Below are positions 653 through 21,404 of a stretch of DNA of 35,907 nt, one piece after another. Below the pieces are notes generated by a model. It ran no database searches. It was given only the letters and a program-made list of their open reading frames with translations, and was not told the origin of the DNA. Source of the DNA: a virus. The stretch covers positions 1-35,907 of IMG/VR virus record IMGVR_UViG_3300028400_000270, one strand, 5' to 3'. The translations under genes and the position numbers were made by a program. Each line of letters begins with the position of its first letter. Within the stretch, counting starts at the first letter, position 1.

Positions 653-743
653 GGAGGGATGGCCGAGTGGACGAAGGCGGGTGATTTGAAATCACTTGAG
701 GGTTAACAGCCCTCCGGGGGTTCGAATCCCTCTCCCTCCGCCA
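653..743 (+). tRNA. tRNA-Ser (anticodon UGA)
   Basis: The 7-bp acceptor stem GGAGGGA (653-659) pairs with TCCCTCC (733-739), followed by discriminator G740 and an encoded CCA (741-743). The anticodon arm GTGAT-TTGAAA-TCAC gives anticodon TGA. A long class-II variable arm (GAGGGTTAACAGCCCTC type) and the T-arm GGGTTCGAATCCC are present, as expected for tRNA-Ser. The gene is intact, and the prophage terminal repeat begins only six bases after CCA. Confidence 0.95.
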
Positions 744-748
744 TATAT

Positions 749-775
749 TATAATTTCCGAAAAAAATGGGACACC
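749..775 (+). repeat. Left terminal inverted repeat of the prophage (L1 site)
   Basis: These 27 bases are perfectly reverse-complementary to 34992-35018. They contain TTTCCGAAAAAAATGGGACA, and the inner part, AAAAAAATGGGACAC, recurs internally at both ends. This is the expected outermost transposase-binding site. Confidence 0.92.
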
Positions 776-787
776 CCCACCTTCGCA

Positions 788-1956: not shown

Positions 1957-4037
1957 TGTGGAAGCCTCAATGTTTTGTCTTTGTTTACAGTAAAGCTTGC
2001 CAGTACAGTTGTCCCATCGTCATCGTAGACTCTGATAGTTTGTGATTTGTCTGGATTTGTTATTATTTCAGCTTTGTTTATAGCTATTTTTTTCAAAAAG
2101 TTTATTTCTGAAATTTCAGAGTTTTGTGCAATTGACTTTATATTGTTTAGGGGATCAAACTGAAGTTTATCAGTTTGGTTTTTTATTTCTTGAAATTTAT
2201 TCTCTAATTGAATTTCTACTTGTCTTGCAATTGCTTCTTTTGTTGCATCCAAATCTACATATTCTTGCCTAATATAACCTTGATACCACAATGCAAAGTT
2301 ATTAGCATCGTCACTAATCCAGAAATATTCATCTGGATTATCTGCTGTAAATACAAATCTCATTGTATAGTATAAGATTTGTCCAGTATCATTACTCCAT
2401 TTTAAATTTACTATTTCCCAATTATTCATTGTATCGGGCATTGAGTTTGAAGTAACAATTGTATTACCATTGTAGATTTCTATTCGTGGTGGTGTAGTAT
2501 TTAGTTGTGCTTTCTTCATTGCTATGTTTATATTGTGGAATTGTGCGGGTTTTGAAGGTATTTTTGTTTCAAGATAAAATTCACCTGCTCTAACTGATTT
2601 TATTTCTATTGCTTTGTTGTTGTTGAATTGAACTGTATCTTGATTGTAGGCATGTTGGTAGTAATCATAAAAATCGTGATGTTGCAACTGATCATATATT
2701 CCAATCGTTTTGCCTTCACCAGATACTAAACCATATACATATTCTCTCTGTTTTCTATTTACTAAAAATCTATGTTCACTATCAAAAGATTTAATCCATG
2801 TTGATGTATCTCTAATATAACCAAATTTGCAATCTTTAAAATCAATCCAATCCCCAATTGCATAAATTCCCATATTCTCAAAATAACAATTTTCAAAATT
2901 CATTCTACATGCATATAGAGTCTCTGCTAAAAAACCACTTGTGTTGTTTCCAAAATATCCATCAACAAAAGTGTGATAATGAGATATATAGTTTGCCGAA
3001 CCTTCTCTCCATATACAATAAGTAATTGCTATTCTTGGAAGTCTGTTGTTTGTCCAGTACTTCATACCATGATTCCATGTATCACCACCAATCCATACAA
3101 TGTCTTCGATATATCCTTGAATACTATTTACCCATTGATTTGAAAAGTTGTTAGCTACAAATATATGATGTTTATTTGTACCATTCATATTAAATTTGTA
3201 GTAATTAGAAAACATTCTAAACATTAAAAATACATTACCACTACAATTATTCATACCTTGATTATTGTTTAAGAATGCTACACCTTTATTGTTATCTAAT
3301 GGAGATTTGAATTGAGTCCAGTTTATTTGTCCATCAATATTTGAAGATTGCAAATAAAATCCCATATGACTATTAATTGAAGTATTCCACCACTCATAGC
3401 TTTCAAATTTAATATTTCTGGTTACATTAGCAAGAAATCCACCTTGAAAATCTACAGTATCTATGAAAGTAATCAATCCTGTTGTATAGTTTATGTCTGA
3501 AATAGTTACTAATTTTACTCCATACCTATCACCGAGTTGTAGCTCATCGCCAATTTGCCAATCTTGTATTTTATCTATGTCACTTTCATGTATCTGAATG
3601 ATATTAGTATTTCCATTCGGATATGCTTTAGCCCAAACATAAGAAAACATTGGATAACCATTTATAGACACATTTACTATATCATCTAATATCAAATTAT
3701 ATTTGGCATGAGCAGGATTATTTGATTTATTCAGGTATATAGTTAAAGTTTTATCCCTATTGCTTGTTCCATCGAAATCTACAATACCACCAGCTTTCTG
3801 GTGAAAATGACCTTGAAGTGTTAAAATACAACTTTTTGTACCATTCCAGTAAAACTTACCACCAGATTCTATTATTAAAGCGTCTCCACCATTGTCTTCC
3901 CCAATATCCCAGTTTGGTATATCGAACTCTACTTCATGAAGAATTTTTACTGTATCTCCTATCCCTGGAACAGTTCCAGAATCCCAAGTAGCTGGATTAC
4001 TCGCTGGACCATTTTGTACTGATTGAATTAGTCCCAT
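1953..4037 (-). CDS. Large tail fibre/adhesin with N-terminal G8-like domain
   Basis: This 694-residue protein is probably displayed on the tail and binds the host surface. Residues 1-60 contain NPATWDSGTVPGIGDTV, close to the G8-domain pattern (Trp, G-x-P-x-x-G-D-x-V) found in beta-helix extracellular proteins. Asn/Gly/Tyr-rich beta-repeat sequence follows to about residue 480, then a jelly-roll-like part. The last 100 residues are a coiled-coil-like segment (ARQVEIQLENKFQEIKNQ) and a short beta tip (RVYDDDGTTVLASFTV). It is the distal gene of the fibre block and is followed by the lysis genes. Receptor binding is inferred from domain type and position. Confidence 0.65.
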   Translation of the reverse strand: MGLIQSVQNGPASNPATWDSGTVPGIGDTVKILHEVEFDIPNWDIGEDNGGDALIIESGGKFYWNGTKSCILTLQGHFHQKAGGIVDFDGTSNRDKTLTIYLNKSNNPAHAKYNLILDDIVNVSINGYPMFSYVWAKAYPNGNTNIIQIHESDIDKIQDWQIGDELQLGDRYGVKLVTISDINYTTGLITFIDTVDFQGGFLANVTRNIKFESYEWWNTSINSHMGFYLQSSNIDGQINWTQFKSPLDNNKGVAFLNNNQGMNNCSGNVFLMFRMFSNYYKFNMNGTNKHHIFVANNFSNQWVNSIQGYIEDIVWIGGDTWNHGMKYWTNNRLPRIAITYCIWREGSANYISHYHTFVDGYFGNNTSGFLAETLYACRMNFENCYFENMGIYAIGDWIDFKDCKFGYIRDTSTWIKSFDSEHRFLVNRKQREYVYGLVSGEGKTIGIYDQLQHHDFYDYYQHAYNQDTVQFNNNKAIEIKSVRAGEFYLETKIPSKPAQFHNINIAMKKAQLNTTPPRIEIYNGNTIVTSNSMPDTMNNWEIVNLKWSNDTGQILYYTMRFVFTADNPDEYFWISDDANNFALWYQGYIRQEYVDLDATKEAIARQVEIQLENKFQEIKNQTDKLQFDPLNNIKSIAQNSEISEINFLKKIAINKAEIITNPDKSQTIRVYDDDGTTVLASFTVNKDKTLRLPQ

Positions 4038-6353: not shown

Positions 6354-6632
6354 TTAGAATCCTCCTATACATTGCTTTGGTTGTTTTAGCTCGTATTGAA
6401 GAGCTAAGATTTCAATCTCTTTTAGGAGGTTTAAAAGCAGCTTTTGTTCCGTATTTGAAAAGTCCTTCATTTCAATAATCATTGCATTTTCTCCAAGTAA
6501 TTCTTTTGTATTCCAAAGTCCCCAAGCAATGAATGCGTATCCATCCAAACTTGGTGGTGGGTTTTCTGTTTTTGTATAGAAACAAATCCCTGTAATGTCA
6601 CAAGGTGGTAGCCTATTTTCTTTTTCATACAA
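6354..6632 (-). CDS. Tail assembly chaperone, frameshift-encoded C-terminal part (T-like)
   Basis: The annotated frame could start at TTG 6632, but that start has no convincing ribosome site. The same frame is open upstream without a stop to 6695, inside the A9 run of the preceding gene. Read through a -1 shift there, it gives a 228-residue fusion whose junction region contains CDKC and PCDITGIC, a plausible four-Cys metal site. This reproduces the G/GT arrangement of siphovirus tail chaperones. Residues WGLWNTKELLGENAMIIEM follow, then a Leu-rich helix. It is most likely made only as a minor extension of the upstream protein. Confidence 0.6.
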   Translation of the reverse strand: MYEKENRLPPCDITGICFYTKTENPPPSLDGYAFIAWGLWNTKELLGENAMIIEMKDFSNTEQKLLLNLLKEIEILALQYELKQPKQCIGGF

Positions 6633-6661
6633 TTCCCTGCATTTGTCACAGCTAACATCTC

Positions 6662-7039
6662 CTACTCCTGAGATGAACGAGATGTATTTTTTGATTTTTT
6701 TTTCTCTTTTTCCTCTAAGTTGACAAGATACATAGCTTTCTCTATTAGCTTTTCCAATATTTCAGGTTTTGCCTGTGTTAAACCTGTTAAAACAAATCTC
6801 ACCTTTTCTTTTGAAAATTTAATTTCTTTTCCATCTGCATCCTGTAATCCTTCCCATCCTATGATTGCATGTTCAAAAATCTCTCCCATAAACTCTGGTG
6901 TTCTTTCAAGCTCTCCTTTATTCGTATATCTTTCCTGTATTTCTCCAACGATGAAAGCATCAACAGGTCTTACATAGATTTTTGCGTCTTCAACTTTTAC
7001 TTCAAAAGTTCCGTCAAAATCTTTAAAATTTAGTTTCAT
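6662..7039 (-). CDS. Tail assembly chaperone (G-like)
   Basis: This 125-residue protein directly follows the tail-tube genes, the usual position of the chaperone that coats the tape measure during tail assembly. It begins with a beta unit (LNFKDFDGTFEVKVEDAKIY), then a helical part (GEIFEHAIIGWEGLQDADGK and ILEKLIEKAMYLVNLEEKEK), and ends in a Lys-rich, disordered tail encoded by a run of nine A residues, a classic slippery site. The ATG is one base after the stop of the tube gene. Confidence 0.65.
   Translation of the reverse strand: MKLNFKDFDGTFEVKVEDAKIYVRPVDAFIVGEIQERYTNKGELERTPEFMGEIFEHAIIGWEGLQDADGKEIKFSKEKVRFVLTGLTQAKPEILEKLIEKAMYLVNLEEKEKKKSKNTSRSSQE
6695..6703 (-). other. Probable -1 programmed frameshift site (A9)
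   Basis: On the minus strand this is GAG AAA AAA AAA TCA (Lys113-Lys115 of the chaperone). It contains the heptamer A AAA AAA that allows -1 slippage. The -1 frame then has 21 sense codons before the T-like frame and continues to the stop at 6354-6356, giving a 228-residue product instead of 125. Confidence 0.6.
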
Positions 7040-8068
7040 TTATATCCTCCAAAGTTCTGTATTTATTTTGTTTGTTAGCTTTATCTGAATTTCTTTTTGC
7101 GTATTAGTGGCAAGTGGTATCAGCTCAAAATCAAGAGAGATTAGATCTGTTCCTGAAACGTTATCTCCAGATTTATTAAATTTGCATTTTGGAAGGATTA
7201 TCTCTATTTCATATCCTTCTGTATGTGTGAATTTTAGATTTGCTGACACTTCGCTGTCGTTTTCATACATAGAGATAATGTCGTCTGCATAATATCTTGG
7301 GATTTTAAATGAAAATCCTACTTCCCTTTTTCCGTTTCTTGCAGGTTCATCTAAATGCAAATCGTTTGATTGTGTTTGAGTTAAATTGTTATTTACAGAA
7401 AGTGAGAATTCAGAAATATTTACAGATATTCCGTTTAGTTTGAAATCTACATCTGAAAATAAAACTCTTTTAAACTCTCCATCTCTATAAGTCCATGTAG
7501 AGCTATCTATACTCTTTAATTTTCTATCGTAAGACAAAAGGTCTAAATCTATCTTTACAACATCTCCAGTTGAGCCCTGAATAGTCATTTGATTAATAAA
7601 ACATGATATAAACTCATGCTGTGAAACCTGCTTATCAATGACTAATGTAAATCTTCTAACCTTTTTATCTGATGTTTTTATCCCAGTAGATGTTTTGATT
7701 CCTTCGTTTGTTCTCCAAGGTCTTGTTTCAAGGTCATCATCTGGTTCAATAGTGTGAACATAAAATCCGTTTCCTAAATCTACTACGGAATTCCATTGTT
7801 CATGTCCTAATGCACATAGAAAAATCTCTTCAAGACCTGTATAAACTGCTTCAAGTGATAAGCTTCCTGAAGCTGTAATTTTTGTAACGTCCATAACTTC
7901 ATAAGAAGCAAATCCGTGAAGATAATTATCTTTCACAAATTCTTTATTCTTTCCAAGTCCTTCCCCTGTAAAAGGCAAAAGAGTAGAAACGGATACAGGT
8001 GTTCCCCAGTTTGTTCCGTCCTCTCTCTTGTATGCAGATTTTGCTAAAAATCCTTTAGCTGTTGCCAT
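7040..8068 (-). CDS. Tail tube protein, copy 2 (342 aa)
   Basis: A paralogue of the adjacent 304-residue protein. Both start MATAKGF-AK-A-x-x-E-x-T-W-G-T-P-V and share LPF-GEGL/IPFVSEGL, LEAVYTGLEEIF/LEATYTGLDEIF, KQVSQHEFISCFINQMTIQG/KQVSVHEFAGVKINQLTIQG and NGKREVGFSF/NGKREVSLSI. This is the pattern of siphovirus tail-tube proteins that polymerise around the tape measure. This copy carries an insert near residues 95-125 (GNGFYVHTIEPDDDLETRPW) and a longer C-terminus. Start and stop overlap or adjoin its neighbours. It may be a minor tube or tail-completion version of the major subunit. Confidence 0.75.
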   Translation of the reverse strand: MATAKGFLAKSAYKREDGTNWGTPVSVSTLLPFTGEGLGKNKEFVKDNYLHGFASYEVMDVTKITASGSLSLEAVYTGLEEIFLCALGHEQWNSVVDLGNGFYVHTIEPDDDLETRPWRTNEGIKTSTGIKTSDKKVRRFTLVIDKQVSQHEFISCFINQMTIQGSTGDVVKIDLDLLSYDRKLKSIDSSTWTYRDGEFKRVLFSDVDFKLNGISVNISEFSLSVNNNLTQTQSNDLHLDEPARNGKREVGFSFKIPRYYADDIISMYENDSEVSANLKFTHTEGYEIEIILPKCKFNKSGDNVSGTDLISLDFELIPLATNTQKEIQIKLTNKINTELWRI

Positions 8069-8982
8069 TATGCGTACCTTTTAATCTCAAATTCGTTAGA
8101 AGATCCAGATTTTAATAAAGTAAACTCTACTGTTTGCTTAATGATTTCAGCACCGCCGACAGGGTCACCGACTTTTGTTACTTTTGCTTTTGGAATGTTT
8201 ATCTCAAAGTTGTTTGTTCCGTCTGTTGCTGTTAAAACAATCGGAATTTCTGCATCTAAATCAAAGTAATCGTTAAATGTATCATTTGCATATCTTGCGA
8301 TGTCTATTGACAAACTAACTTCTCTCTTTCCATTTCTGCTAACTTCAACTGTTTCTTTTTTATTTTCAAAAATAGCTGTTAAGTTGTTGTTTAACTGTAA
8401 ATTGAACCCTGCTATCCCTATAGGTGAACCTCCAGCTGAACAGGAAAAATCAGAAAATAAAATTCTTCCGCCAAAAGGAGAAGCTCCGTCTATATCTGCA
8501 GATGTATTTGTAGCAGATGTTCCTCTGTTTTTCAGTTTTGCAATAGTATCAAGTGAAACTTTTATAGTGTCCCCTGCAGAGCCTTGAATTGTTAACTGAT
8601 TTATTTTTACTCCTGCAAATTCGTGAACAGATACTTGTTTGTCAACTGCAACAGTAAGGGATTTATTTATATCTTCTGCAAGTGAAAAGATATATGGATC
8701 TGCAGATGTCCCTGTTCCAGATTTTGTCCCCAGTGCAATTTCAAATATTTCATCAAGTCCTGTGTATGTTGCTTCCAGTTCTATGGGACCTGAGACATTT
8801 ATCTGTGTGATTTCTGCTCTTTCTATTCCTTCGCTTCCTAAAATGTTATCTGATGCTCTACCAAATTCTTTTGATAGTCCTTCAGAAACAAAAGGTATCA
8901 ATTGAGAAACGTTTACTGGTGTTCCCCATGTTGTCTCTTTTCCTACTGCTGCCTTTGCAGCAAAACCTTTAGCTGTTGCCAT
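8068..8982 (-). CDS. Tail tube protein, copy 1 (304 aa)
   Basis: The likely major tail-tube subunit. The N-terminal ETTWGTPVNVSQLIPFVSEG motif and the repeated TGLDEIFEIALG, VDKQVSVHEFAGVKINQLTI and EVSRNGKREVSLSIDIARY segments fit the phage tail-tube family of about 300 residues. The sequence is beta-rich throughout with few charged helices. It lies immediately upstream of its paralogue and downstream of the neck genes, the standard siphovirus order. Which copy is the major subunit is not shown by sequence. Confidence 0.78.
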   Translation of the reverse strand: MATAKGFAAKAAVGKETTWGTPVNVSQLIPFVSEGLSKEFGRASDNILGSEGIERAEITQINVSGPIELEATYTGLDEIFEIALGTKSGTGTSADPYIFSLAEDINKSLTVAVDKQVSVHEFAGVKINQLTIQGSAGDTIKVSLDTIAKLKNRGTSATNTSADIDGASPFGGRILFSDFSCSAGGSPIGIAGFNLQLNNNLTAIFENKKETVEVSRNGKREVSLSIDIARYANDTFNDYFDLDAEIPIVLTATDGTNNFEINIPKAKVTKVGDPVGGAEIIKQTVEFTLLKSGSSNEFEIKRYA

Positions 8983-12011: not shown

Positions 12012-13091
12012 TTAGAAAGGAATGTCTTCTTCTGTTTCTTCCTGATAGTCGTTTATTTTTTGAAGTAGTGTTTCTAACTGTTCGTTTGTAAGCTCTTTAG
12101 AACTGTTTACTCCAAATTCTTCCTGAATAATTTCTTTTATTTTTTCTGAACTTAATCCTTTTTCGTTTGCTACATTTTGTATCGCTTTTAGTAGTTCTTT
12201 TCTGTATCGTTTTTTCATTATAGTTTCTTTTATTTCTTTCCAAGTGTAATAGTTGTCAGTTTCTGTTAATGAAGATATTCCGTATTTTTGGAAAATTTTG
12301 TTGATGTCTATTTCTGCATCTTCTGCTAATAGCCTTAACTGGTCTTCTAAAAGTATTAGCAATTTATCTATTATTTCCGAAGCTTCTGATTTTGTTAACT
12401 CTGTTGAGCTTTCTTTTCCAACTTGATTTTTTAGCCATTCTTTAAACTGATGTTCGTAAAAATCTTGACTGATTAGAGAAGCTACTGCATGAAGCATTTT
12501 TATTTGCTCTTTTGTTATAGGTTCTTCTTCTGTTTTTACTGCCTGTGGATTTTCATCTTCAAGTTCTTCAACTGATGTGTATCCTGTGATGTTGAATGCT
12601 TTTCTTAATGCTCTGTTTACTGCTCTTGTTTCTGCCATTTCTTGCGGGTTTGTTTTTACTGCCCAGCTTTTTTCGTTAGTAGAAGCTTTTCCCCATCCTA
12701 CGTATGGTTCTTTTTGTCCTTTTAGATAAACTTCGGCTCTCCAAAGATGAATGTCTTTTGGATTGTTTCCTATGAAGTAGGCTTTTCTTTCTTCTTCCGT
12801 TGCTGGTCTTGTTTTTATTCCTTCAAGTTTACCAGAGTTATGGGCTATGTGAAGCAGTCCTGCATTTGTTATGTATAACCTGTCGTTTATTATCGTTAGG
12901 TGTCCTAATATAGGATTTAGTCCTAACTGCTGTGCGGCTAATACTACTAATGCTCTTTGTTCGTTTGTGTATGGTTTTCCTTCTCTGTCCCTTAATACTA
13001 ACTGTCCTGCTTGCTGCATTAGTTTTGCAGGATCAACATTTCCTACAAGAGCTGTTGCAGGTATTTCTGGTTTTGTGATATTTGTTTCCAT
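12012..13091 (-). CDS. RecT/Bet-family single-strand annealing protein
   Basis: This protein anneals complementary ssDNA and promotes phage recombination or repair. Residues 43-95 include NEQRALVVLAAQQLGLNPIL, LYITNAGLLHIAHNSGKLEG and the following strand, the core pattern of RecT/Bet proteins. MAETRAVNRALRKAF at 152-166 is a conserved basic motif of these annealases. The C-terminal half (about 190-359) is helical and charged and ends in the acidic tail DIPF, resembling SSB-interaction tails. It is the last early gene before the terminator. No exonuclease partner is obvious beside it. Confidence 0.75.
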   Translation of the reverse strand: METNITKPEIPATALVGNVDPAKLMQQAGQLVLRDREGKPYTNEQRALVVLAAQQLGLNPILGHLTIINDRLYITNAGLLHIAHNSGKLEGIKTRPATEEERKAYFIGNNPKDIHLWRAEVYLKGQKEPYVGWGKASTNEKSWAVKTNPQEMAETRAVNRALRKAFNITGYTSVEELEDENPQAVKTEEEPITKEQIKMLHAVASLISQDFYEHQFKEWLKNQVGKESSTELTKSEASEIIDKLLILLEDQLRLLAEDAEIDINKIFQKYGISSLTETDNYYTWKEIKETIMKKRYRKELLKAIQNVANEKGLSSEKIKEIIQEEFGVNSSKELTNEQLETLLQKINDYQEETEEDIPF

Positions 13092-13093
13092 GA

Positions 13094-13291
13094 TTAATTT
13101 ACCTCCAATTGTTTTAATTTTTCATCAATCAATGAAATTCTTAAATCTATTTCTTCAATGTATTTACAACCATTTCTGCATTCTTCGCTTTTTTGAATGT
13201 GTAAGAGTTTTAAACCTTTTAAAATCATCAATTCTTTTTTTAAAAAAGAGATGTATCTGTCTCTTAATATAGGGTCATCAAACATCAGCAT
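13094..13291 (-). CDS. Small hypothetical early protein, 65 aa
   Basis: A short helical, Lys/Glu-rich product that opens MLMFDDPILRDRYISFLKKE. It includes two Cys separated by a Arg-Asn-Gly turn (ECRNGC), and ends in a coiled-coil segment (SLIDEKLKQLEVN). The ATG at 13291 has AGGAGG upstream and overlaps the end of the previous gene. No family was recognised. Its location, immediately before the annealing protein, suggests a replication or recombination accessory. Confidence 0.55.
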   Translation of the reverse strand: MLMFDDPILRDRYISFLKKELMILKGLKLLHIQKSEECRNGCKYIEEIDLRISLIDEKLKQLEVN

Positions 13292-13538
13292 TCTCTACCT
13301 CCTTTATAGCTTTGTCTCTTAAAAATTCAATAATTTTTTCTATCTGCTTGATTTCTTCTTCATACTCAAATGTCGTTCCAAGTGCTCTTTCTATGTTTGT
13401 TAAAATTGTTTGCGTCTTTACAGGAATTCTGACTAAGTTTTCTATCTCTTCAAATGCCGTTTCTATTCTTATTTGCTCTCTTATCTTCTTGTCTTTTTTT
13501 AAATCTGCTAAAACAAATGTTTTTCGTTTCTTTTTCAA
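13278..13538 (-). CDS. Small hypothetical early protein, 86 aa
   Basis: The start is TTG 13538, supported by GGGAGG nine bases upstream. The protein is mainly helical, with a basic N-terminus (MKKKRKTFVLADLKKDKKIR) and an acidic C-terminal coiled coil (YEEEIKQIEKIIEFLRDKAI). It shows no recognisable domain. Position in the early operon between small accessory genes suggests a DNA-metabolism or host-takeover role, which is unproven. Confidence 0.55.
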   Translation of the reverse strand: MKKKRKTFVLADLKKDKKIREQIRIETAFEEIENLVRIPVKTQTILTNIERALGTTFEYEEEIKQIEKIIEFLRDKAIKEVENADV

Positions 13539-13561
13539 CTTGCAATCCTCCCGTTTTGTTG

Positions 13562-13750
13562 TTAATTTTTATTTGCGTGTGTTTTTGCTTGAGGAAGGGT
13601 TCTCCTTTGTGGGAATTCTTCCTTTTTTATTTCTCTCACAATTCCCATAGCGTCTTTTAATCCTTTTGCATAAACAGTCCAAACAACTTTCTCTCCGTAG
13701 AACTTTTTAACAATCCAAGTATTTTCTTTGTAAGCTAAACTAACCATCAT
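13562..13750 (-). CDS. Small hypothetical early protein, 62 aa
   Basis: The product (MMVSLAYKENTWIVKKFYGE at the start) looks like a compact beta-beta-alpha unit, with aromatic strands followed by a helix (AKGLKDAMGIVREIKKEE) and a disordered basic tail. The ATG overlaps the stop of the preceding gene, with AGGAGG seven bases upstream. No function was recognised. Confidence 0.55.
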   Translation of the reverse strand: MMVSLAYKENTWIVKKFYGEKVVWTVYAKGLKDAMGIVREIKKEEFPQRRTLPQAKTHANKN

Positions 13751-13935
13751 TTTTCCTCCTTTATGTAATAACGAATTTCTTTACTGTTTGAATCTTTTCC
13801 TTTAAAGACATGTTCCCATTGCTTGTTTTCTGTCTTGCTTTTGATGATTACCGTATTTCCTATTTCCTGAACTTCATAGAACTCAGAGTTTAAGTAGCAT
13901 TTTGAAGCTCCAAAATCTAAAATTATTGTCATCAC
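13747..13935 (-). CDS. Small hypothetical early protein, 62 aa
   Basis: A beta-rich product (MTIILDFGASKCYLNSEFYE, then VQEIGNTVIIKSKTENKQWE) ending in a basic strand. It overlaps the HU gene stop upstream and the next small gene downstream by 4 bp each, so translation is probably coupled. No family was recognised. Confidence 0.55.
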   Translation of the reverse strand: MMTIILDFGASKCYLNSEFYEVQEIGNTVIIKSKTENKQWEHVFKGKDSNSKEIRYYIKEEK

Positions 13936-14225
13936 ACTTCCTCCATTACATGTTTTTCTACGTTGTTTTTTAATGTTGCTGACGGTGCAAACTCAATCCT
14001 TACCTTTGCAGGCAAAACCTTTTCTTCTTTTGTTTTTGGATGTATGTATCTTCTTGGTTTAGAAGTTCTTGTGAAAAATGTTCCAAAATGCGGAATGTGT
14101 AGCCTGTCCTCAGCTTCTAAAGTTTTGGAGATTGCTGTAAAAACTTCATCAACTACTTTAGAAGCTGTTTCAAAGTCCGTATTGCTGTTTTTTGATACTG
14201 CGTGTTTAAATTCGTAGTAAGTCAT
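13932..14225 (-). CDS. HU/IHF-family DNA-bending protein
   Basis: A 97-residue histone-like protein. It has the HU order: N-terminal helices (residues 1-40, with SKVVDEVFTAISKTLEAEDR), then the HIPHFGTFFTRTSKPRRYIH beta arm with an F-G-T-F motif and the P-R arm region, and a C-terminal LPAKVRIEFAPSATLKNNVE. Mu transposition needs host HU/IHF to bend the end and enhancer DNA; this phage appears to bring its own. The gene overlaps the membrane-protein gene upstream (ATGA) and the next small gene downstream. Confidence 0.9.
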   Translation of the reverse strand: MTYYEFKHAVSKNSNTDFETASKVVDEVFTAISKTLEAEDRLHIPHFGTFFTRTSKPRRYIHPKTKEEKVLPAKVRIEFAPSATLKNNVEKHVMEEV

Positions 14226-14398
14226 ACTTTAAACCCTCCTGTTTTTTTTATTTGGTGCAGGTCTTTTAGGGCTTTGTTTCTAAAATCTCTATACTTTTTC
14301 TCTGTTTGTATCAGCATGTAATACATAGTCAGCGTGATAAATCCCCACACCACAGAAGCAACTAAAACTCCTAAAACGAACCAAGTAATCCATTCCAT
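14222..14398 (-). CDS. Small single-pass membrane protein, 58 aa
   Basis: ATG 14398 has AGGAGGTG seven to eight bases upstream, and the stop overlaps the HU ATG (ATGA). The product MEWITWFVLGVLVASVVWGF followed by ITLTMYYMLIQTEKKYRDFR has one long transmembrane helix with a basic cytoplasmic tail. It resembles early phage membrane proteins of unknown role. The strong ribosome site and coupling make translation likely. Confidence 0.65.
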   Translation of the reverse strand: MEWITWFVLGVLVASVVWGFITLTMYYMLIQTEKKYRDFRNKALKDLHQIKKTGGFKV

Positions 14399-14404
14399 CA
14401 CTTT

Positions 14405-15058
14405 TCACCTCCTTTGTAGTCTTAAATCTTTTGTTTCATTAACTTCTAATGTTTTGCATGTTTCTAATAGTCTTGAAATGACAGGTTCTTCTTTTATGAA
14501 GTTAAAAAAGTCTTTTATCCCTGCGTTTGTAGTTATGAAGATGAGTTTTTCATTGTTGTATGCGTGGTAGATTATTTCTGTTGCAAACTTTTTCTCCCAG
14601 CTGTTTATGTTTGGATTTAAATCATCAATTAGAAAGCAGTCGTATTTTGAAAGTCTTTTGTTATCCTGCTCTTTCTTTACGTCAAAGTCCTGAAATGTTA
14701 TGTATAGAGGATTGTTTATTTTGTGTGTGTAAACCAACTGTGCTATTTTATAAATAGTTGCAAATGTTTTTCCAATTCCAGCTTTACCGCTCAGGATTAA
14801 GCCCTGAGCGTCCTTTTCTTTTTTGATTAGCTCTAATGCTTTTGTTTTTTGTTTTTCTTTTGACAGAACTGCCTTTATGTATTTGGCAGGAAATTCTCCA
14901 TCTTCAAGTATTTTTTGTATGCTGTTTATATCTCTTGGTTTTAGAACTCTTACTAATCTTTTCTCTTTCTCTACCCAGTAGAACCTGTCATCTTCAAGAT
15001 AAATGCTTTCACCTTTTACAATATTTATTGCTTCTTGCGGTGTTTTTGCCATTATCAT
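14405..15058 (-). CDS. DnaC/IstB-like AAA+ ATPase, putative helicase loader
   Basis: Counting from the alternative GTG at 15067, Walker A GKAGIGKT is at residues 94-101, Walker B CFLIDDL at 144-150, sensor-like LIFITTNAG near 174-182, and VISRLLETC near 195-203 carries the arginine-finger-type Arg. I choose ATG 15058, because GGGGGTG lies six bases upstream. The order and the short N-terminal region fit phage helicase loaders that place the host replicative helicase. It follows a 162-residue gene that could be a replication organiser. Confidence 0.72.
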   Translation of the reverse strand: MIMAKTPQEAINIVKGESIYLEDDRFYWVEKEKRLVRVLKPRDINSIQKILEDGEFPAKYIKAVLSKEKQKTKALELIKKEKDAQGLILSGKAGIGKTFATIYKIAQLVYTHKINNPLYITFQDFDVKKEQDNKRLSKYDCFLIDDLNPNINSWEKKFATEIIYHAYNNEKLIFITTNAGIKDFFNFIKEEPVISRLLETCKTLEVNETKDLRLQRR

Positions 15059-15072
15059 CTGTATCACCCCCT

Positions 15073-15561
15073 TTAAAACGGAACGTCTTCCGTATCATCT
15101 GGTTTGTTGATGTGTTGCAAATAGTAGTCAACGCCTCTTTCGTTTTCAGGGGATGTCCATTTTTTCTTTTGTGTTTTCTGTGATTTTTTTATTGCCGGGA
15201 GTAAGGCTCTGAACTGTGAAATTCCTCTTGCTCCTTTTCTTTGCGTATTTTTGAAGTTCTCATAATCTGCTTGGAGTTGTTCTACTGTTTCATTGTTTTG
15301 CTGATAGATTTTTACAAGCTCTTTTAAGTGTTTTCCTATAATCCCCTGATATTTCACAGACATCAGTTTTTCTGGCGGTTCGTTGTTCCAAAGTTCCATA
15401 TACCAGCCCATAAGGTGTCTTATGTCAACTTTGTCTTTTTGCTTATCTTCTAAATAGACCTGAATTCCTTTTATGAGCCTGTCTAATTTTGTTTTTGCTT
15501 CCTTTCCTGACTTTGCATTTCTTATTTCTATAAGTCTTTTCAAAATGGTTTCGTGTCTCAT
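15073..15561 (-). CDS. Putative replication-accessory protein, 162 aa
   Basis: A helical, Lys-rich product (TILKRLIEIRNAKSGKEAKT; LKELVKIYQQNNETVEQLQA) ending in a disordered tail with VDYYLQHINKPDDTEDVPF. Like the annealing protein (DIPF) it ends in an acidic stretch finishing with a Val/Ile-Pro-Phe, the C-terminal pattern of SSB-type tails. It sits between the zinc-ribbon protein and the helicase-loader-like ATPase, where phage replisome organisers often lie. No domain was recognised, so the role is an inference from position. Confidence 0.5.
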   Translation of the reverse strand: MRHETILKRLIEIRNAKSGKEAKTKLDRLIKGIQVYLEDKQKDKVDIRHLMGWYMELWNNEPPEKLMSVKYQGIIGKHLKELVKIYQQNNETVEQLQADYENFKNTQRKGARGISQFRALLPAIKKSQKTQKKKWTSPENERGVDYYLQHINKPDDTEDVPF

Positions 15562-16100
15562 AGCAAGACTCCTCTTTTCTTTCTTAAAATTTTCAGTCTT
15601 TCTCTTATTGCTTCTTCTGTTCTTCCAAGCTGTTTTGCTATTTCCTGAGCTTTGTTTTTGTTGAACCTTAAAGTTCCGTTGTGTTTAAAGTTTTTCATCA
15701 AGATTTCATCTTCCCATTCTTGCCAGTTCTGGAATTTTCTACCCTTTTTTCCACTGTGTCTTTTGGTCTTGTGATATAGCTTGTAATACTCTTTTTTGCA
15801 TTCCTTTGAGCAAAAGATCTGCTTTTCTTCAAATGGAACGAATTCTTTACTGCATACTGCACACTTTCTTTTATCTATGTATTTTTCCCAGTACTGTGCG
15901 TATCCTTTTAATGCAAATATTCCTTCTGCTACTGCTGTGATTGTTGCTTTATAGAGCTGCTGTTTTATGAAGTTTTTTACTTTGTTTCTTAAAAAGGATT
16001 TTCCTAAAAACTTATACTTTGTTTCTTCAAGATCTTTCACTATATCTTTTGGTGTGAAAACTTTTCTTTTGACCATGAAAGACCAGATTGTGTTTTTCAT
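15558..16100 (-). CDS. Zinc-finger/HTH DNA-binding protein, 180 aa
   Basis: Residues 78-100 contain KRKCAVCSKEFVPFEEKQIF followed by CSKEC, a C-x2-C...C-x3-C zinc site of the treble-clef type. The C-terminal 60 residues (FQNWQEWEDEILMKNFKHNG, then AQEIAKQLGRTEEAIRERLK) read as a SANT/Myb- or sigma-like helix-turn-helix. The gene overlaps the MuB-like gene by 4 bp. It is a candidate for the middle/late activator that recognises the CGTTCA repeats, as no Mor/C homologue is seen elsewhere. That assignment is a guess; a role in replication is also possible. Confidence 0.6.
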   Translation of the reverse strand: MKNTIWSFMVKRKVFTPKDIVKDLEETKYKFLGKSFLRNKVKNFIKQQLYKATITAVAEGIFALKGYAQYWEKYIDKRKCAVCSKEFVPFEEKQIFCSKECKKEYYKLYHKTKRHSGKKGRKFQNWQEWEDEILMKNFKHNGTLRFNKNKAQEIAKQLGRTEEAIRERLKILRKKRGVLL

Positions 16101-16789
16101 ATTGATACCTCTACTGCTTTTATTAATTTTTTGATTTCTTTTTCTGACAATTGTTCAAGCTTCATTCCTTTTGCGTAGTATAGAAGCCTGTCAATTTCTA
16201 TGGTTGTCCAGTTTCTCTGCTTTGCTATTTTTAGAAGGTTTTCATCTGTTCTTATTTTGTAGTGGTCTGCAAGCTGTCTAACTGTTTTTTCTGATATTGG
16301 AGCAAGGGATTTTCTGATAATAACCCTTTTGTTTAATGCTGGATATTTCCCCATGTGTTTTAAAAGGTCAAGGTCTCCAAGAAGTGCAAACCTGATGGGA
16401 AACTCTTCAAATACGTCTTTTATTTCTCCCATTAAGGTTCTTTTTGACAAGAGCCTTTGAGCTTCGTCTAAAATTACTATCGGGCTTTGTCCTGTTGCTT
16501 CAAGGTATGTTGATAAAAATTCAAGTGTTTCTTGATAGCTTCTGGAGATTGCAGAGCCTAATACTCTTGCAAGTTCTCTTGTAAACTTTGAAGGTGTGTC
16601 AAGTGTTTGTGATACTTTCATGTAAAAAACGTCGTGATACTGTTTTGAAAGCATTTTTGCTGCTTCTGTTTTTCCTACTCCGTAGTTTGCAGATACAACT
16701 GCAAGCCCTTGCTTATTGTCTTTAATTGTTTTACGGAGCATTAAGACGACTTTCTCAAGTTCTTCAAAAGCGTGTGTTTTCACTTGCAT
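16097..16789 (-). CDS. MuB-like AAA+ transposition ATPase
   Basis: The ATP-dependent partner that selects target DNA and activates the transposase. Walker A ANYGVGKTEAAK is at residues 34-45 and Walker B IVILDEAQRL at 104-113. FALLGDLDLL (about 135-144) is the sensor-1 region seen in MuB/TniB/TnsC-type ATPases, and a helical C-terminal domain follows. At 230 residues it is shorter than Mu B (312), lacking the N-terminal HTH part. It starts one base after the transposase stop and precedes the zinc-finger gene in the early operon. Confidence 0.87.
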   Translation of the reverse strand: MQVKTHAFEELEKVVLMLRKTIKDNKQGLAVVSANYGVGKTEAAKMLSKQYHDVFYMKVSQTLDTPSKFTRELARVLGSAISRSYQETLEFLSTYLEATGQSPIVILDEAQRLLSKRTLMGEIKDVFEEFPIRFALLGDLDLLKHMGKYPALNKRVIIRKSLAPISEKTVRQLADHYKIRTDENLLKIAKQRNWTTIEIDRLLYYAKGMKLEQLSEKEIKKLIKAVEVSI

Positions 16790-16790
16790 T

Positions 16791-18239
16791 TCAATCTTCC
16801 TCCATTAAAAGTTTTTCTAATATGTTTTCTTCTTCTGGTTCTTGATGTTCTTCTTCATTGATAAGGTTTTCTTGAAGCTGTTCGTATAGTGGTTCTGTGG
16901 ATATTTCTACCTTGTGAGGATCCTCCTGGACTGCTTCTACTTCAAGCATTGTTTTTTCTGCTTCAAGTTTTTGAACTCTTTTCTGAACTCTTTTTTGTTT
17001 TTGAACTGCTTGTTTTTGCGATACTGCGTCAAGGTGTATTGGCTGGCTTATAAGTTTGGCAACTCCCAAGTATTCTCCTGTTTCGTGAGAATAAACGAAA
17101 AGATTTGTGATATTTTCAATGTCTCTCAAACATACAACTGCAAGATTTTCTCTTTTTCTTCCAAGGTCTGTTTCTACTTTGTGGTGAATGAATTCGTATA
17201 TTAAGTTGTCTATCTGTATTTGGTTGTTTATTACTTTTCTTTCAAATCTTTGTGAGAATGCCTGTCTTATTATTTCTTCGTCAAGCTGTTTTGTTCCAAG
17301 TCCGTATGCCTGAACTATTTCTACAGGAGAGAATGAGCCTTGAATGTGCTTGAAGTTGTGATTTTCTTTATTGTATGTTTCTATTGCAAGGTGCCATAGA
17401 TCTTCAAAACTTCCTTCAAATCCTGATGCTCTTATCAGCCTGTTTGTTCCTTTTATTCCATCAAAAGCTTTTTCTATTAGCTTTGAACCGGGGTTGTAAG
17501 ATTTTGTGTTTTTATATTTAACTTCAAGCTGTTTGAATGCAGATATAAGATACTGGTTTTTTATCACTTTTTCGTTGTCAGACTTGATAGCTTTTGGAAC
17601 TCCGTATTGAATGAAAAGTGTCATGAAGTAGTATGCAAGGTCAAGGGAGTTGAATGCTTTGTTGTAGTATTTTACATTCTTTTCTTTGTTCTCAATTATA
17701 TATGGCGGTAGGAAGTATCCAGAAAAGCTGTCTCTGATGTTCATAATGGAGTAGTTTTTGCCGTTGTATGAGTATCCAGTAGCGTCTATTTCCCACAGTC
17801 CTATTTCTCTTTTTACGGTTCCTTTTGGTTTTACATATTTTGCAAGTTCTTTTTTCAGCCTTCTGTTTTTCTCAAGTTTTTCATGTGAACCAAACTCCCT
17901 AACTATGAAGTAATCAATGAATTCGTAAAATGCTTTCTTGCCGAGCTTGACATTGTCGGCTATCAGGTCTATCTTTATCATCTCGTATATTTGGGAGTTT
18001 GATAGAACCCTGCTCCTTCCTTTTTCTTCTGTGCGGAAGGTCAGCAGGGTTTTTATCTTGCTTCTGGTTTTTTCAGAGAGGGACTTGTAGATTCTTAAAT
18101 TTCTTTCTCCGTTTTTTCTTCTCTCCTGTCCCTCTCCTTTTATAATTCTGTGAACTTTAGATTTACTTACTCCAGTGATTTTTGCTATCTCTCTTACAGA
18201 AAAACCTTGTGCGTGCAACTCTAAGATCTTAGACTTCAT
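16791..18239 (-). CDS. MuA-like DDE transposase
   Basis: Catalyses strand transfer for integration and replicative transposition. An N-terminal HTH (about 8-35, GFSVREIAKITGVSKSKVHR) precedes a RNase H-fold core with catalytic Asp152 (WEIDATGY), Asp221 (IKSDNEKV) and Glu256 (PGSKLIEKAFDG), a D-D-34-E spacing. A beta-barrel-like domain follows to about residue 400. The C-terminus is charged and coiled, and may contact the MuB-like ATPase as the Mu A tail does. At 482 residues it is shorter than Mu A (663), having fewer N-terminal DNA-binding domains. Its ATG overlaps the stop of the ParB-like gene. Confidence 0.93.
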   Translation of the reverse strand: MKSKILELHAQGFSVREIAKITGVSKSKVHRIIKGEGQERRKNGERNLRIYKSLSEKTRSKIKTLLTFRTEEKGRSRVLSNSQIYEMIKIDLIADNVKLGKKAFYEFIDYFIVREFGSHEKLEKNRRLKKELAKYVKPKGTVKREIGLWEIDATGYSYNGKNYSIMNIRDSFSGYFLPPYIIENKEKNVKYYNKAFNSLDLAYYFMTLFIQYGVPKAIKSDNEKVIKNQYLISAFKQLEVKYKNTKSYNPGSKLIEKAFDGIKGTNRLIRASGFEGSFEDLWHLAIETYNKENHNFKHIQGSFSPVEIVQAYGLGTKQLDEEIIRQAFSQRFERKVINNQIQIDNLIYEFIHHKVETDLGRKRENLAVVCLRDIENITNLFVYSHETGEYLGVAKLISQPIHLDAVSQKQAVQKQKRVQKRVQKLEAEKTMLEVEAVQEDPHKVEISTEPLYEQLQENLINEEEHQEPEEENILEKLLMEED

Positions 18240-19156
18240 GAGCCTCTCCCTTTTAATCTGTTAAAATCAAAAAGTGCTTTTCTGTCCTTATAATCTTCCA
18301 TATCCTTGTAGGTCTTTTCTTTTAGTGCAAAATAAAATTCTTCTGCGATTTCAAGTGCTTTTTCTAATCCGAAATGAAATTCTATTTCTATGAGTGCGTC
18401 CCAGATTATGTCTTTGTTTCTTTCAAGAATTTTTGTTGGTGGTAAGAGTTCTTTCTCTTTCTTTTGTTTTGACTTTGGCTTTTCTTCTGCCGCTGGTTCT
18501 TCTTCGTTCCAGTCGTCCCAGCTTCCGTCGTATTCCTCTTCACCTTCGGGGGTGTTTACAAAATTTTGAAAGTTTTCATTTTTTTGTAAAGAGTTGAGCA
18601 TATAAGATACTCTTTGTTGTGAAATTCCTAAATTTTTAGCAATTTCCTCTTGTGTATAACCTTCCCTATAAAGTTCCAAAGCCTTTTGTTTTAGCTTTTC
18701 TTTTTCAAGTTTTTCTTTGTTTTTTAAATCTTTTATCCAGTTGTAAACAGTTCTTTCTTCTACGCCGAATAATTCTGCTATTTCTTTGGGTTCGTCGCCT
18801 TGTAAATATAAAGTTCTGGCATTTTCAATTTTTTCCTCTCTGGTTAGAGGTATTCCGTGTTTTAGGTTTGCCTTTATGGCTACTTTTCTAAACTCTTTTT
18901 CATCATTCAGGTCTTTGAGTTTTGCTTGTATGTAGGTTTTTCCTGCTTTTTGGTGGGCTAAATATCTATGGTTTCCATCTACTATCCAATATTTACCGTC
19001 TCTAGGGTTTTTCCAAACAAGTATTGGGTCAAACTCTACGCCGTTTTTTATCATTTCTGCGTATTCTTCTACCTTTTCAGGTATAGTTCCTGTTATTACT
19101 CTTGGAAGAAGTCCTTGAGGTATATAAAGGTCTGAAATATCTATTTTTACTATCAT
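18236..19156 (-). CDS. ParB-like domain protein with HTH modules
   Basis: Residues 1-95 form a ParB/Srx-type domain with LYIPQGLLPRVITGTIPEKV, DPILVWKN and the box GNHRYLAHQKAG (about 60-71). Two helix-turn-helix units follow: about 108-145 (EPKEIAELFGVEERTVYNWI) and about 158-192 (YTQEEIAKNLGISQQRVSYM). Then come an acidic, low-complexity linker and a helical C-terminal domain. It could bind the phage ends or an internal enhancer and shape the transposition complex, or regulate the early operon. The gene directly precedes the transposase and carries the 35-bp repressor-type palindrome within its linker-coding part. CTP binding is not established from sequence alone. Confidence 0.75.
   Translation of the reverse strand: MIVKIDISDLYIPQGLLPRVITGTIPEKVEEYAEMIKNGVEFDPILVWKNPRDGKYWIVDGNHRYLAHQKAGKTYIQAKLKDLNDEKEFRKVAIKANLKHGIPLTREEKIENARTLYLQGDEPKEIAELFGVEERTVYNWIKDLKNKEKLEKEKLKQKALELYREGYTQEEIAKNLGISQQRVSYMLNSLQKNENFQNFVNTPEGEEEYDGSWDDWNEEEPAAEEKPKSKQKKEKELLPPTKILERNKDIIWDALIEIEFHFGLEKALEIAEEFYFALKEKTYKDMEDYKDRKALFDFNRLKGRGS
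18556..18590. repeat. 35-bp palindromic box inside the ParB-like gene
   Basis: These bases match 21356-21390 upstream of the repressor at 34 of 35 positions (only 18579 T versus 21379 A differs). The core TTGAAAGTTTTCAA/TTGAAAGTTTTCAT is an inverted repeat flanked by TTACAAAA and TTTTGTAAA arms. In the ParB frame it encodes LQKNENFQNFV, just before the acidic linker. It is probably an internal operator or enhancer bound by the repressor. Confidence 0.7.
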
Positions 19157-19172
19157 TTTCTCAATCCTCCTT

Positions 19173-19217
19173 GTCGTTCAATCCGTTCACGGAATTTTTG
19201 AAATAGTTGTATGTTTT
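19173..19217 (+). promoter_or_regulatory. CGTTCA-type promoter, early-region copy A
   Basis: GTCGTTCAATCCGTTCAC (19173-19190) has the two CGTTCA half-sites 9 bp apart. After exactly 13 bases comes TAGTTGTATGTTTT (19204-19217), aligned with the TTTATCTTT box of the late promoters. The predicted start falls at about 19222, the ATG of the small membrane gene, so the mRNA would be leaderless. Confidence 0.65.
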
Positions 19218-19221
19218 GGGT

Positions 19222-19434
19222 ATGGAAAAGTTTGCAGATGTTTTGCTTGAGCTTGTTAATAAGGGATATTTAGATTTTGTTTTTATGGTGTTGTCCACTA
19301 TTCTATTTTTCAAAGCTGACAAACATAGAAAGGAACTGAAAACCCCGTCTGCTAATTTAGTTGCGTATGTATATTTACTTCTCATTATTTTCCTCTTTTT
19401 CAAATTTTTCATAGATTATGTCCTCAATATTTGA
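19222..19434 (+). CDS. Small two-TM membrane protein, antisense to early operon (70 aa)
   Basis: The 70-residue product MEKFADVLLELVNKGYLDFV has two hydrophobic helices (about 17-32 and 50-69) joined by a charged loop FFKADKHRKELKTP. It is paralogous to the protein at 20760-20993, whose loop is LFKAEKENVELKSP, and substitutions between them are conservative in this frame. The matching promoter ends right at the ATG, with no ribosome site, predicting a leaderless transcript. The gene lies antisense to the early operon and its 3' end overlaps a minus-strand gene. A membrane function, such as superinfection exclusion or lysis timing, is possible but unproven. Confidence 0.55.
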   Translation: MEKFADVLLELVNKGYLDFVFMVLSTILFFKADKHRKELKTPSANLVAYVYLLLIIFLFFKFFIDYVLNI

Positions 19435-19524
19435 AAGTTTTGTGTATAGCACTAAAATTAACCCCATTATCAAAGCTCCTATCATGGAAAATCCAACTTC
19501 TAAAACCTTAATTAACTCTTCCAT
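19375..19524 (-). CDS. Small single-TM protein, 49 aa, paralogue of 20907-21083
   Basis: ATG 19524 has AAGGAGGAGT upstream, a strong ribosome site. The product MEELIKVLEVGFSMIGALIM then GLILVLYTKLSNIEDIIYEK has one membrane helix and an acidic tail. It aligns with the 58-residue protein at 20907-21083 (MEKLIVVLMIGFSITGALIF). Its end overlaps the plus-strand gene 19222-19434 on the opposite strand. Together with that gene it forms the second copy of a duplicated module. Confidence 0.6.
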   Translation of the reverse strand: MEELIKVLEVGFSMIGALIMGLILVLYTKLSNIEDIIYEKFEKEENNEK

Positions 19525-19538
19525 CTCAATACTCCTCC

Positions 19539-19925
19539 TTAAAAATGGTCTTCTTCAATGTTATTTTTATTAGGGGCAGGGCTTTGTAATAAATCTTTGA
19601 AGGTAAACGAATGTGAGCGAAGCAAAGGAACCAACTCGTTCTCAACAAAATTCTTATCAAGTTTCTCTTGATGGACGTTCAGTTGAATTGAATGTTCATC
19701 TTGACAATAAACAGTTAATAGCTCTTTTAATTCTGTTAATTCAGAAAGTAGATTTTTTAGAAGCTGTTTTATCTCGGCTTGCTCTAAAAGAAGGTCTTTC
19801 AAAAGACGATTTGGATAAACTTCTTGATGAGAGCCTAAAATCTTCTTCCCAAATCGTCTCTGATATTTTGGATAAAATGAAGGATTAACACTTTTTAAAG
19901 CCCTGCCCTTTTTTACCTTTTTCAT
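19539..19925 (-). CDS. Early hypothetical protein with tape-measure-like C-terminal motif (128 aa)
   Basis: ATG 19925 has GGGAGG nine bases upstream. The basic N-terminus is followed by a coiled coil (LLLEQAEIKQLLKNLLSELT, about 45-70). Then comes HSIQLNVHQEKLDKNFVENE and LVPLL, which resembles the tape-measure C-terminus (NTIHVHADNFDRRFVEDELL, PIL). Such a motif shared by an early and a late protein is unusual. The gene is overlapped by an opposite-strand frame (19613-19888). No function is known. Confidence 0.55.
   Translation of the reverse strand: MKKVKKGRALKSVNPSFYPKYQRRFGKKILGSHQEVYPNRLLKDLLLEQAEIKQLLKNLLSELTELKELLTVYCQDEHSIQLNVHQEKLDKNFVENELVPLLRSHSFTFKDLLQSPAPNKNNIEEDHF
19574..19908. 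repeat. 12-bp perfect inverted repeats bracketing a 335-bp segment
   Basis: GGGCAGGGCTTT (19574-19585) and AAAGCCCTGCCC (19897-19908) are exact reverse complements. They enclose the plus-strand frame 19613-19888, while the minus-strand gene 19539-19925 reads through both arms. A GC-rich 12-mer pair is unexpected by chance in this AT-rich DNA. It may mark a small inserted cassette or form a long-range RNA stem. Confidence 0.5.
19613..19888 (+). CDS. Possible plus-strand gene overlapping the 128-aa early gene (91 aa)
   Basis: This frame starts at GTG 19613 with GAAGG nine bases upstream. The product is protein-like: SLDGRSVELNVHLDNKQLIA, a hydrophobic helix LLILLIQKVDFLEAVLSRLA, then KEGLSKDDLDKLLDESL and DILDKMKD. 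It is fully antisense to a minus-strand gene that has the better ribosome site. At the overlap both strands encode a similar peptide (DGRSVELNVH on plus, DEHSIQLNVH on minus). Either strand, or both, may be used; this one is less certain. Confidence 0.35.
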   Translation: MSEAKEPTRSQQNSYQVSLDGRSVELNVHLDNKQLIALLILLIQKVDFLEAVLSRLALKEGLSKDDLDKLLDESLKSSSQIVSDILDKMKD

Positions 19926-19926
19926 A

Positions 19927-20400
19927 TTAATATTCCTCCCTTAACGTCATAACCTTGCTTCTTATTACTGCTCTTTTTTGGTTAAGGACTGTTAGAGCTT
20001 CATCTATTTCGTTGAGATATAGAAGCAGTTCTTCTTTTGTTATTCTTCCGTCTTCACGGATTTCAACTTCCGTTTGGGGAACATCGTGAAGTTCTTTCAT
20101 CAGTTTTGAAAGTTTTATGTCTTCTTCAGCTTCCTGTATTTCAACTTTCATAGGAACATATCCGTATCTTCTGAGTATTTCTTGTAAAACTTGCTGAAAT
20201 AGTTCAGGTGTTTCATCTTTTAGAACATCAAAAATATCAACTGCTTTAGATATAGGATCTCTACGATAGTGTGGATTGTCCGTGTCATTTGCCCAGCTAT
20301 AAATTGTCTTTGCTGAAATGCCAGTTCTGACCTGAAAAATCAAAGGATTTTTCCTTTTGATAAATTTTTTGTAAACCCAATTAAAGTTTGCGTGTGCCAT
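19927..20400 (-). CDS. HTH regulator, CII/Ner-region type (157 aa)
   Basis: The N-terminal 60 residues (NWVYKKFIKRKNPLIFQVRT, then GISAKTIYSWANDTDNPHYR) form a likely helix-turn-helix, with ISAKTIYSWAN as the recognition helix. The middle part (AVDIFDVLKDETPELFQQVL) resembles phage regulatory proteins of the CII-like group that act in the early operon. The C-terminal half is helical and charged. It lies between a Ner-like gene and a small coiled-coil gene. It is one candidate for the activator of the CGTTCA promoters. Confidence 0.6.
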   Translation of the reverse strand: MAHANFNWVYKKFIKRKNPLIFQVRTGISAKTIYSWANDTDNPHYRRDPISKAVDIFDVLKDETPELFQQVLQEILRRYGYVPMKVEIQEAEEDIKLSKLMKELHDVPQTEVEIREDGRITKEELLLYLNEIDEALTVLNQKRAVIRSKVMTLREEY

Positions 20401-20423
20401 GATATATACCTCCTAAAAGTGAT

Positions 20424-20696
20424 TTATTTTTCTTCAGATTTTTTCTCAGATTTTTCCACGTTCTCTAATACATAAGGAAAAAGCGAGCCTCTCGGAACTT
20501 CTAAAAAATCCTCTATTGCTTTTGCTATTCTGCGGGATTTGTCGCCTTTGTATAGAAAGCGATACATAAATGTGGTAGAGATGCCTAACTCTTCCGTAAG
20601 GTCTTTTAGTGTCATTCCTCTTTTTGCCAGTTCTCCTTTTATGAAGTTTACAGCTCCGTATTTTTTTATTTCTTTATTTATGTCTTTAGTTCTCAT
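20424..20696 (-). CDS. Ner-like small HTH regulator
   Basis: The 90-residue product contains FIKGELAKRGMTLKDLTEEL then GISTTFMYRFLYKGDKSRRI, followed by AKAIEDFLEVP. This order (R-G-M-T-L-x-x-L ... G-I-S-T-T-F, then I-A-x-A-I) resembles Mu Ner/Nlp-type DNA-binding proteins, which damp early and repressor transcription. The C-terminus is a short Lys/Glu tail. Its position early in the minus-strand operon, after two small genes, agrees with Ner. The region upstream of its ATG carries a CGTTCA promoter on the other strand. Confidence 0.65.
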   Translation of the reverse strand: MRTKDINKEIKKYGAVNFIKGELAKRGMTLKDLTEELGISTTFMYRFLYKGDKSRRIAKAIEDFLEVPRGSLFPYVLENVEKSEKKSEEK

Positions 20697-20710
20697 ACTT
20701 TTACCTCCTT

Positions 20711-20755
20711 GTCGTTCAAATCGTTCACAGAAATTTTTAAATAGTTGTATGTTTT
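20711..20755 (+). promoter_or_regulatory. CGTTCA-type promoter, early-region copy B
   Basis: GTCGTTCAAATCGTTCAC (20711-20728), 13 bases, then TAGTTGTATGTTTT (20742-20755) are the same as copy A apart from a few bases. The predicted start (about 20760) coincides with the ATG of the downstream membrane gene. Sequence similarity with copy A extends from CTTGTCGTTCAA to GGGTATGGA. Confidence 0.65.
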
Positions 20756-20759
20756 GGGT

Positions 20760-20993
20760 ATGGAATTAGATAAAATTTTGGTAGCAATTCTTTTAAATAA
20801 GTTTTTGCAACATGTATTTGTTTTTATAGTGTGTGTGCATTTGCTTTTTAAAGCAGAGAAAGAAAATGTAGAATTAAAATCTCCTTTTATAAAAATTAGT
20901 TCTTGGCTAATTTTCATTTTGGTTATCTCCCTCTTTGGAGTTATTCTTTTTGATTTGGTTTTTTATATCATTAACGAGATCAAGCAAAATTGA
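20760..20993 (+). CDS. Small two-TM membrane protein, antisense to early operon (77 aa)
   Basis: The product MELDKILVAILLNKFLQHVF has two membrane segments (about 18-31 and 48-70) separated by LFKAEKENVELKSPFIKISS. It is a paralogue of the 70-residue protein at 19222-19434. The ATG sits at the predicted transcription start, so the mRNA would have no leader and no ribosome site. The gene runs against the early operon, and its last part overlaps the minus-strand gene 20907-21083. Confidence 0.55.
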   Translation: MELDKILVAILLNKFLQHVFVFIVCVHLLFKAEKENVELKSPFIKISSWLIFILVISLFGVILFDLVFYIINEIKQN

Positions 20994-21083
20994 AAATTTC
21001 AGGTCTAACATAAGGATTACACCGAAAATTAAAGCACCTGTTATTGAAAAACCAATCATTAAAACCACAATTAACTTTTCCAT
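20907..21083 (-). CDS. Small single-TM protein, 58 aa, paralogue of 19375-19524
   Basis: ATG 21083 follows GGGAGA. The sequence MEKLIVVLMIGFSITGALIF then GVILMLDLKFSILLDLVNDI has one membrane helix, then a basic, Asn-rich tail. It shares the N-terminal half with the 49-residue protein at 19375-19524. It overlaps the 60-residue gene upstream by 13 bp and the plus-strand gene 20760-20993 downstream. Confidence 0.6.
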   Translation of the reverse strand: MEKLIVVLMIGFSITGALIFGVILMLDLKFSILLDLVNDIKNQIKKNNSKEGDNQNEN

Positions 21084-21253: not shown

Positions 21254-21285
21254 TTGTATATTCTCCGTGTGTGTTGTTAGATATA

Positions 21286-21339: not shown

Positions 21340-21355
21340 AATTAGTAGTAATTTT

Positions 21356-21390: not shown

Positions 21391-21404
21391 AATTTTAGAA
21401 CTGA

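Follow-up and report, generated by a model that had tools for sequence, protein, structure and literature searches.

The window analysed here is the whole 35.9-kb stretch of DNA, recorded as a single virus contig. On its minus strand, tail genes follow one another in the order tube-tube-G-T, and the ATG of G abuts the stop codon of the preceding tube gene. The zero-frame ORF, G, runs from the ATG at 7039 to the stop at 6664-6662 and encodes 125 aa, with a Shine-Dalgarno sequence (GGAGG) 6 nt upstream of its start. In profile searches its C-terminal half matches the tail assembly chaperone family phrog_313 (E 9.5e-10), with a further match to phrog_8233 (E 7e-4), and its best matches among phage records are annotated tail chaperones of Septimatrevirus (E 4e-3). 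The two tube genes form a tandem pair of differing paralogues, of 304 and 342 aa (7040-8982). The features of the locus are as follows.

8068-8982, minus strand: first tail tube protein (Phage_tube_2, E 1.8e-27)
7040-8068, minus strand: second tail tube protein, directly upstream of G (Phage_tube_2, E 2.7e-17)
6662-7039, minus strand: G, 125 aa in the zero frame, very probably a tail assembly chaperone (phrog_313, phrog_8233; Shine-Dalgarno GGAGG)
6712-6715, minus strand: GAGG resembling a Shine-Dalgarno sequence, 10 nt before A AAA AAA (sequence)
6695-6703, minus strand: A9 run holding A AAA AAA in X XXY YYZ phase (sequence; the only run of at least nine in the window)
6686-6692, minus strand: A AAA AAT, the other slippery heptamer in phase (heptamer count)
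6655-6685, minus strand: 7-bp hairpin, ACATCTC...GAGATGT, 9 nt downstream of A AAA AAA (folding)
6354-6694, minus strand: T, 113 codons and a stop in the -1 frame, which with G would make the 228-aa GT (open -1 frame 6764-6356; codon score)
6354-6632, minus strand: stand-alone 92-aa ORF from TTG 6632, without CDKC and without a Shine-Dalgarno sequence (ORF list; start and Shine-Dalgarno scan)

Frames and slippery sequences in the G/T overlap

The A9 run that the first-pass annotation had placed near the end of the 125-aa frame is present at 6703-6695, inside that frame, in the phase AAA AAA AAA (three Lys codons) followed by T. The stop codon of G comes 30 nt past it, as is usual for G. In the -1 frame the last stop lies at 6764, and from there the frame is open up to the stop at 6356-6354, spanning the next gene. 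When the frames were re-derived and joined at A9, the product was exactly the 228 aa claimed at first pass, MKLNF...EKEKKK-IKKYISF...CDKC...CDITGIC...IGGF. Codon use resembles that of coding sequence in frame 0 upstream of the slip site and in frame -1 downstream of it; over 6632-6357 the -1 frame scores +0.25 bits per codon, as against -0.78 for frame 0.

Two X XXY YYZ heptamers stand in phase within the 34-codon overlap, A AAA AAA at 6701-6695 and A AAA AAT at 6692-6686, near the end of G and with the -1 frame open beyond them. In the other genes, in-phase A AAA AAN occurs 32 times per 10,411 codons, which gives an expectation of about 0.10 per overlap of this length compared with the two seen. 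The A9 is also the sole A/T run of at least nine in the window, where an order-3 Markov model predicts about 11. Long A/T runs thus appear to be avoided elsewhere in the 35.9 kb, and the single one falls in the G/T overlap. As for stimulators of slippage, the GAGG at 6712-6715 is a possible candidate, judged from its sequence and spacing. The hairpin at 6655-6685 is another possible candidate, although it is weak and within chance (z -1.6; 16 of 200 shuffles fold equally well) and would be weaker still at the growth temperature of the host.

The T part and two-frame chaperone genes in relatives

The -1 frame offers little for independent initiation of T. TTG 6632 is the only ATG, GTG or TTG before or within the Cys cluster CDKC...CDITGIC, there being none between the stop at 6764 and 6632, and initiation there drops CDKC, so that part of the cluster is lost, as the first-pass annotation had it. 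No Shine-Dalgarno sequence was found for this TTG, whereas 24 of the 26 other genes in the window have one, both neighbours included. Directly after the stop of G, a 59-aa frame-0 ORF (6479-6658) with a Shine-Dalgarno AGGAG at 6 nt overlaps T; a Mu-like prophage of another Aquificota genome, G133, carries a comparable 82-aa frame-0 ORF overlapping its own T. The 59-aa ORF is probably spurious.

Profile searches gave no Pfam or PHROG family match for the T part, and the predicted structure has a mean pLDDT of 47, too low for use. Searches of IMG/VR, the GTDB contigs and 136 Aquificota genomes brought up no close homologue of G, of T or of their fusion, and the weak matches of one search were mostly fragments of long unrelated frames. 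In the literature library that was searched, hardly any published work on Mu-like prophages of Aquificota turned up. The same two-frame gene is nevertheless found in distant relatives. The relative L002, reached via its tail tube gene, has a tube gene, a G (pairwise E 9e-8) and a -1 frame T, with the tape measure gene next in line; its slippery heptamer is an in-phase C CCT TTG, and its T carries CHQCR, a CxxCR motif, and further Cys residues. In L003, an in-phase G GGA AAC stands just ahead of the stop of G, and the T in the -1 frame has CRAC, its first start codon falling after the CxxC begins; T is followed by a 1075-aa protein that resembles a tape measure and has no family match. G133 has an in-phase T TTT TTA and a T in the -1 frame with CxxC, and this T contains no ATG, GTG or TTG whatsoever and is therefore reachable only by a change of frame. 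A second Aquificota Mu-like prophage, G042, has an in-phase T TTT TTT and a T in the -1 frame. A profile match (phrog_10093, E 4e-28) confirms the tape measure of G133, and that of G042 is suggested by size and position.

Between the T parts themselves, the resemblance is slight. The T of the window is weakly similar to that of L002 (pairwise E 0.002), with CxxCR common to both, and its similarity to that of G133 does not reach significance. Blind profile searches left the T parts of the window and the relatives unlinked, and a T profile retrieved G133 alone, itself a member of the profile, and no viral contig. The T parts may be homologous, as their common position and Cys motif suggest.

By comparison with described systems, the locus very probably belongs among G/GT pairs, a frameshifting arrangement widely conserved in long-tailed phages (PMC5009743). 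As in lambda, G directly follows the tail tube gene or genes, the -1 slip site is near the end of G and T, read in the -1 frame, has no good start, but lambda slips on G GGA AAG rather than on A AAA AAA within A9, and the sequences are unrelated. RcapMu of Rhodobacter (orf49/orf50) is also a transposable siphovirus with a 125-aa G and a -1 T; it differs in its site (G GGA AAC TGA, where its record marks a potential -1 frameshift), in its DUF1799 T, in contrast to the T here, which lacks a Pfam match, and in its adjacent downstream tape measure. The Septimatrevirus phages (DLP_2, PaMx10) give the best G matches (37% over 59 aa), and DLP_2 has A AAA AAC TAA with a Phage_TAC_18 T in the -1 frame, but that T is from another family and the tape measure lies two genes downstream. 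G133 and G042 have early and head genes related to those of the window, whereas their G sequences are not detectably similar to the G here and their chaperone genes stand directly ahead of the tape measure.

A tape measure gene distant from G/T in a Mu-like prophage

The window holds a MuA-type transposase (phrog_310, E 1.5e-17), a MuB-type ATPase (phrog_296, E 1.2e-16) and a Phage_Mu_Gp27 protein (E 7e-16), with inverted repeats at both ends, and is a Mu-like prophage. Its host belongs to the Hydrogenothermaceae (84% identity of GmhA), a hot-spring bacterium of a thermophile lineage. The outer features are as follows.

750-776, plus strand: inverted repeat of the left terminus, about 7 nt past tRNA-Ser(UGA) (repeat comparison)
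31924-34779, minus strand: tape measure protein, at the prophage's extreme right (TMP_3, E 5.7e-36; phrog_973, E 4.5e-52)
34998-35024, minus strand: right terminal inverted repeat (repeat comparison)

The first-pass annotation had noted that G/GT frameshifts normally sit just before the tape measure gene, which is so in distant relatives such as L002, G133 and G042, and that here the tape measure is about 25 kb away in another transcription unit. The TMP_3 match bears this out. The usual adjacency, which does not define the mechanism, is absent: the tape measure gene lies about 25 kb from G/T on the same strand, close to the other prophage end and hence in another transcription unit, and plus-strand genes stand between them at 21.4-23.4 and 26.8-29.8 kb, so that in the prophage no single transcript can cover both. 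The repressor and early genes occupy the middle (12012-23444), with head and tail genes split to both ends. Joining the ends would bring the stop of T to within about 5.9 kb of the tape measure gene, with fibre and lysis genes between. Among the phages seen, the separation is particular to that of the window. Misassembly is an unlikely cause, since the early genes of the related G042 are also central and the terminal repeats match at both ends. A second chaperone beside the tape measure was also considered, and no ORF of at least 50 aa was found from the tape measure start to the right terminal repeat.

Some further observations concern the ends and the transposition genes. In the window (653-776) and in seven other Aquificota genomes, tRNA-Ser(UGA) is followed, a few to about 35 nt on and in the same orientation, by the terminal repeat TATAATTTCC.AAAAAAATGGGACACC; loci with the repeat and tRNA-Ser are L110, L111, L112, L114, L115, L117, L133, L136 and L148, and L012 keeps a one-end remnant. 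This is a family of Mu-like transposable phages or elements with a fixed, Tn7-like target, in contrast to the near-random insertion of Mu. Beside the same end repeat by tRNA-Ser, L013 has at 3300-3600 a gene that begins MEKSIDTVFLLGAGASAPLGLPITKG and, by eye, resembles SIR2; it is possibly defence cargo at the element end. The MuB-like ATPase protein (16097-16789) is 100% identical to that of G091, whereas the adjoining MuA is 79% identical, a contrast that may reflect sharp recombination or strong constraint.

Origin of the probable fusion protein

The chaperone profile, the tube neighbours, the heptamers, the T without a start signal of its own and the same two-frame gene in distant relatives all argue for the ordinary lambda-type G/GT reading, and the -1 frameshift tail chaperone fusion proposed at first pass, to which the TTG without a Shine-Dalgarno sequence and the -1 layout of the relatives also point, is the best reading of the locus. 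The 125-aa gene is very probably a lambda-type G, with a -1 slip at A9 yielding the GT chaperone of a Mu-like Hydrogenothermaceae prophage. That T is instead a separate protein, made from TTG 6632 or by re-initiation after the stop of G with no fusion, is improbable. The 92-aa ORF with its TTG does exist, and the Shine-Dalgarno-like AGGAG does overlap the stop of G, but the AGGAG serves the frame-0 ATG of the 59-aa ORF and not T, the TTG entails the loss of CDKC, and the T parts of G133 and L003 have, respectively, no usual start codon and a first start only after the CxxC has begun. A sequencing error or mutation in the homopolymer, the true gene being one continuous ORF or a decayed one, is very improbable. 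Homopolymers do invite errors, and the record consists of one contig; yet a two-frame layout is standard in relatives, G ends at its own stop at the usual distance from A9, and codon use changes frame at the site.

The agent of the slip is a different matter. RNA polymerase might slip on A9, so that transcripts with an extra A (A10) place T in frame and encode an identical 228-aa protein. This is a possibility that we hold doubtful, the least unlikely of the alternatives. Polymerase slippage is efficient in bacteria at runs of nine As or Ts, and the dnaX gene of Thermus thermophilus, a thermophile, relies on such a run (PMC5009743); there, as may be the case here, a nine-base homopolymer serves to make two proteins; the host of the window phage is likewise of a thermophile lineage, and A9 is the one long run in a sequence that seemingly avoids them. 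The dnaX case differs in that it concerns a replication gene, that the slippage is transcriptional and that in-frame reading gives the long form. Against polymerase slippage stand the short heptamers of the relatives (C CCT TTG, G GGA AAC, A AAA AAC, T TTT TTA), which suit ribosomal slippage only, and the A9 itself, which includes a correctly phased ribosomal heptamer with a second one following. Since both routes yield ...EKKKIKK..., the protein junction, as seen by mass spectrometry, cannot separate them. The composite proposal in which separate transcription units, one near each end of a tRNA-Ser-targeted thermophile Mu-like prophage, supply G/GT and the tape measure, with the fusion produced by polymerase slippage, is more doubtful still and is offered tentatively.

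Under the preferred lambda-type reading, with the ribosome as the likely slipping agent, most ribosomes would translate G through to the stop at 6664 and a small fraction would shift to -1 at A9, making the 228-aa GT. The shift would most likely be ribosomal slippage on A AAA AAA, possibly aided by A AAA AAT just downstream; its occurrence and efficiency are inferred, as is the function of T. In lambda, G is made in excess with little GT, and G binds the tape measure while T binds the tube protein (PMC5009743). By this analogy the tape measure would carry a coat of many G and few GT, whose T part would recruit tail tube subunits. Whereas lambda has its tape measure gene next to the chaperone, G/GT here would act on a tape measure translated from a separate message.

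The finding would add a Mu-like phage of Aquificota to those in which the G/GT chaperone frameshift is conserved. An A9 site in a thermophile would be a clean system for the question of ribosome versus polymerase slippage. The prophage would also offer a natural example of a chaperone ratio set within a transcription unit other than that of the tape measure, suggesting that a tight gene neighbourhood may not be essential.
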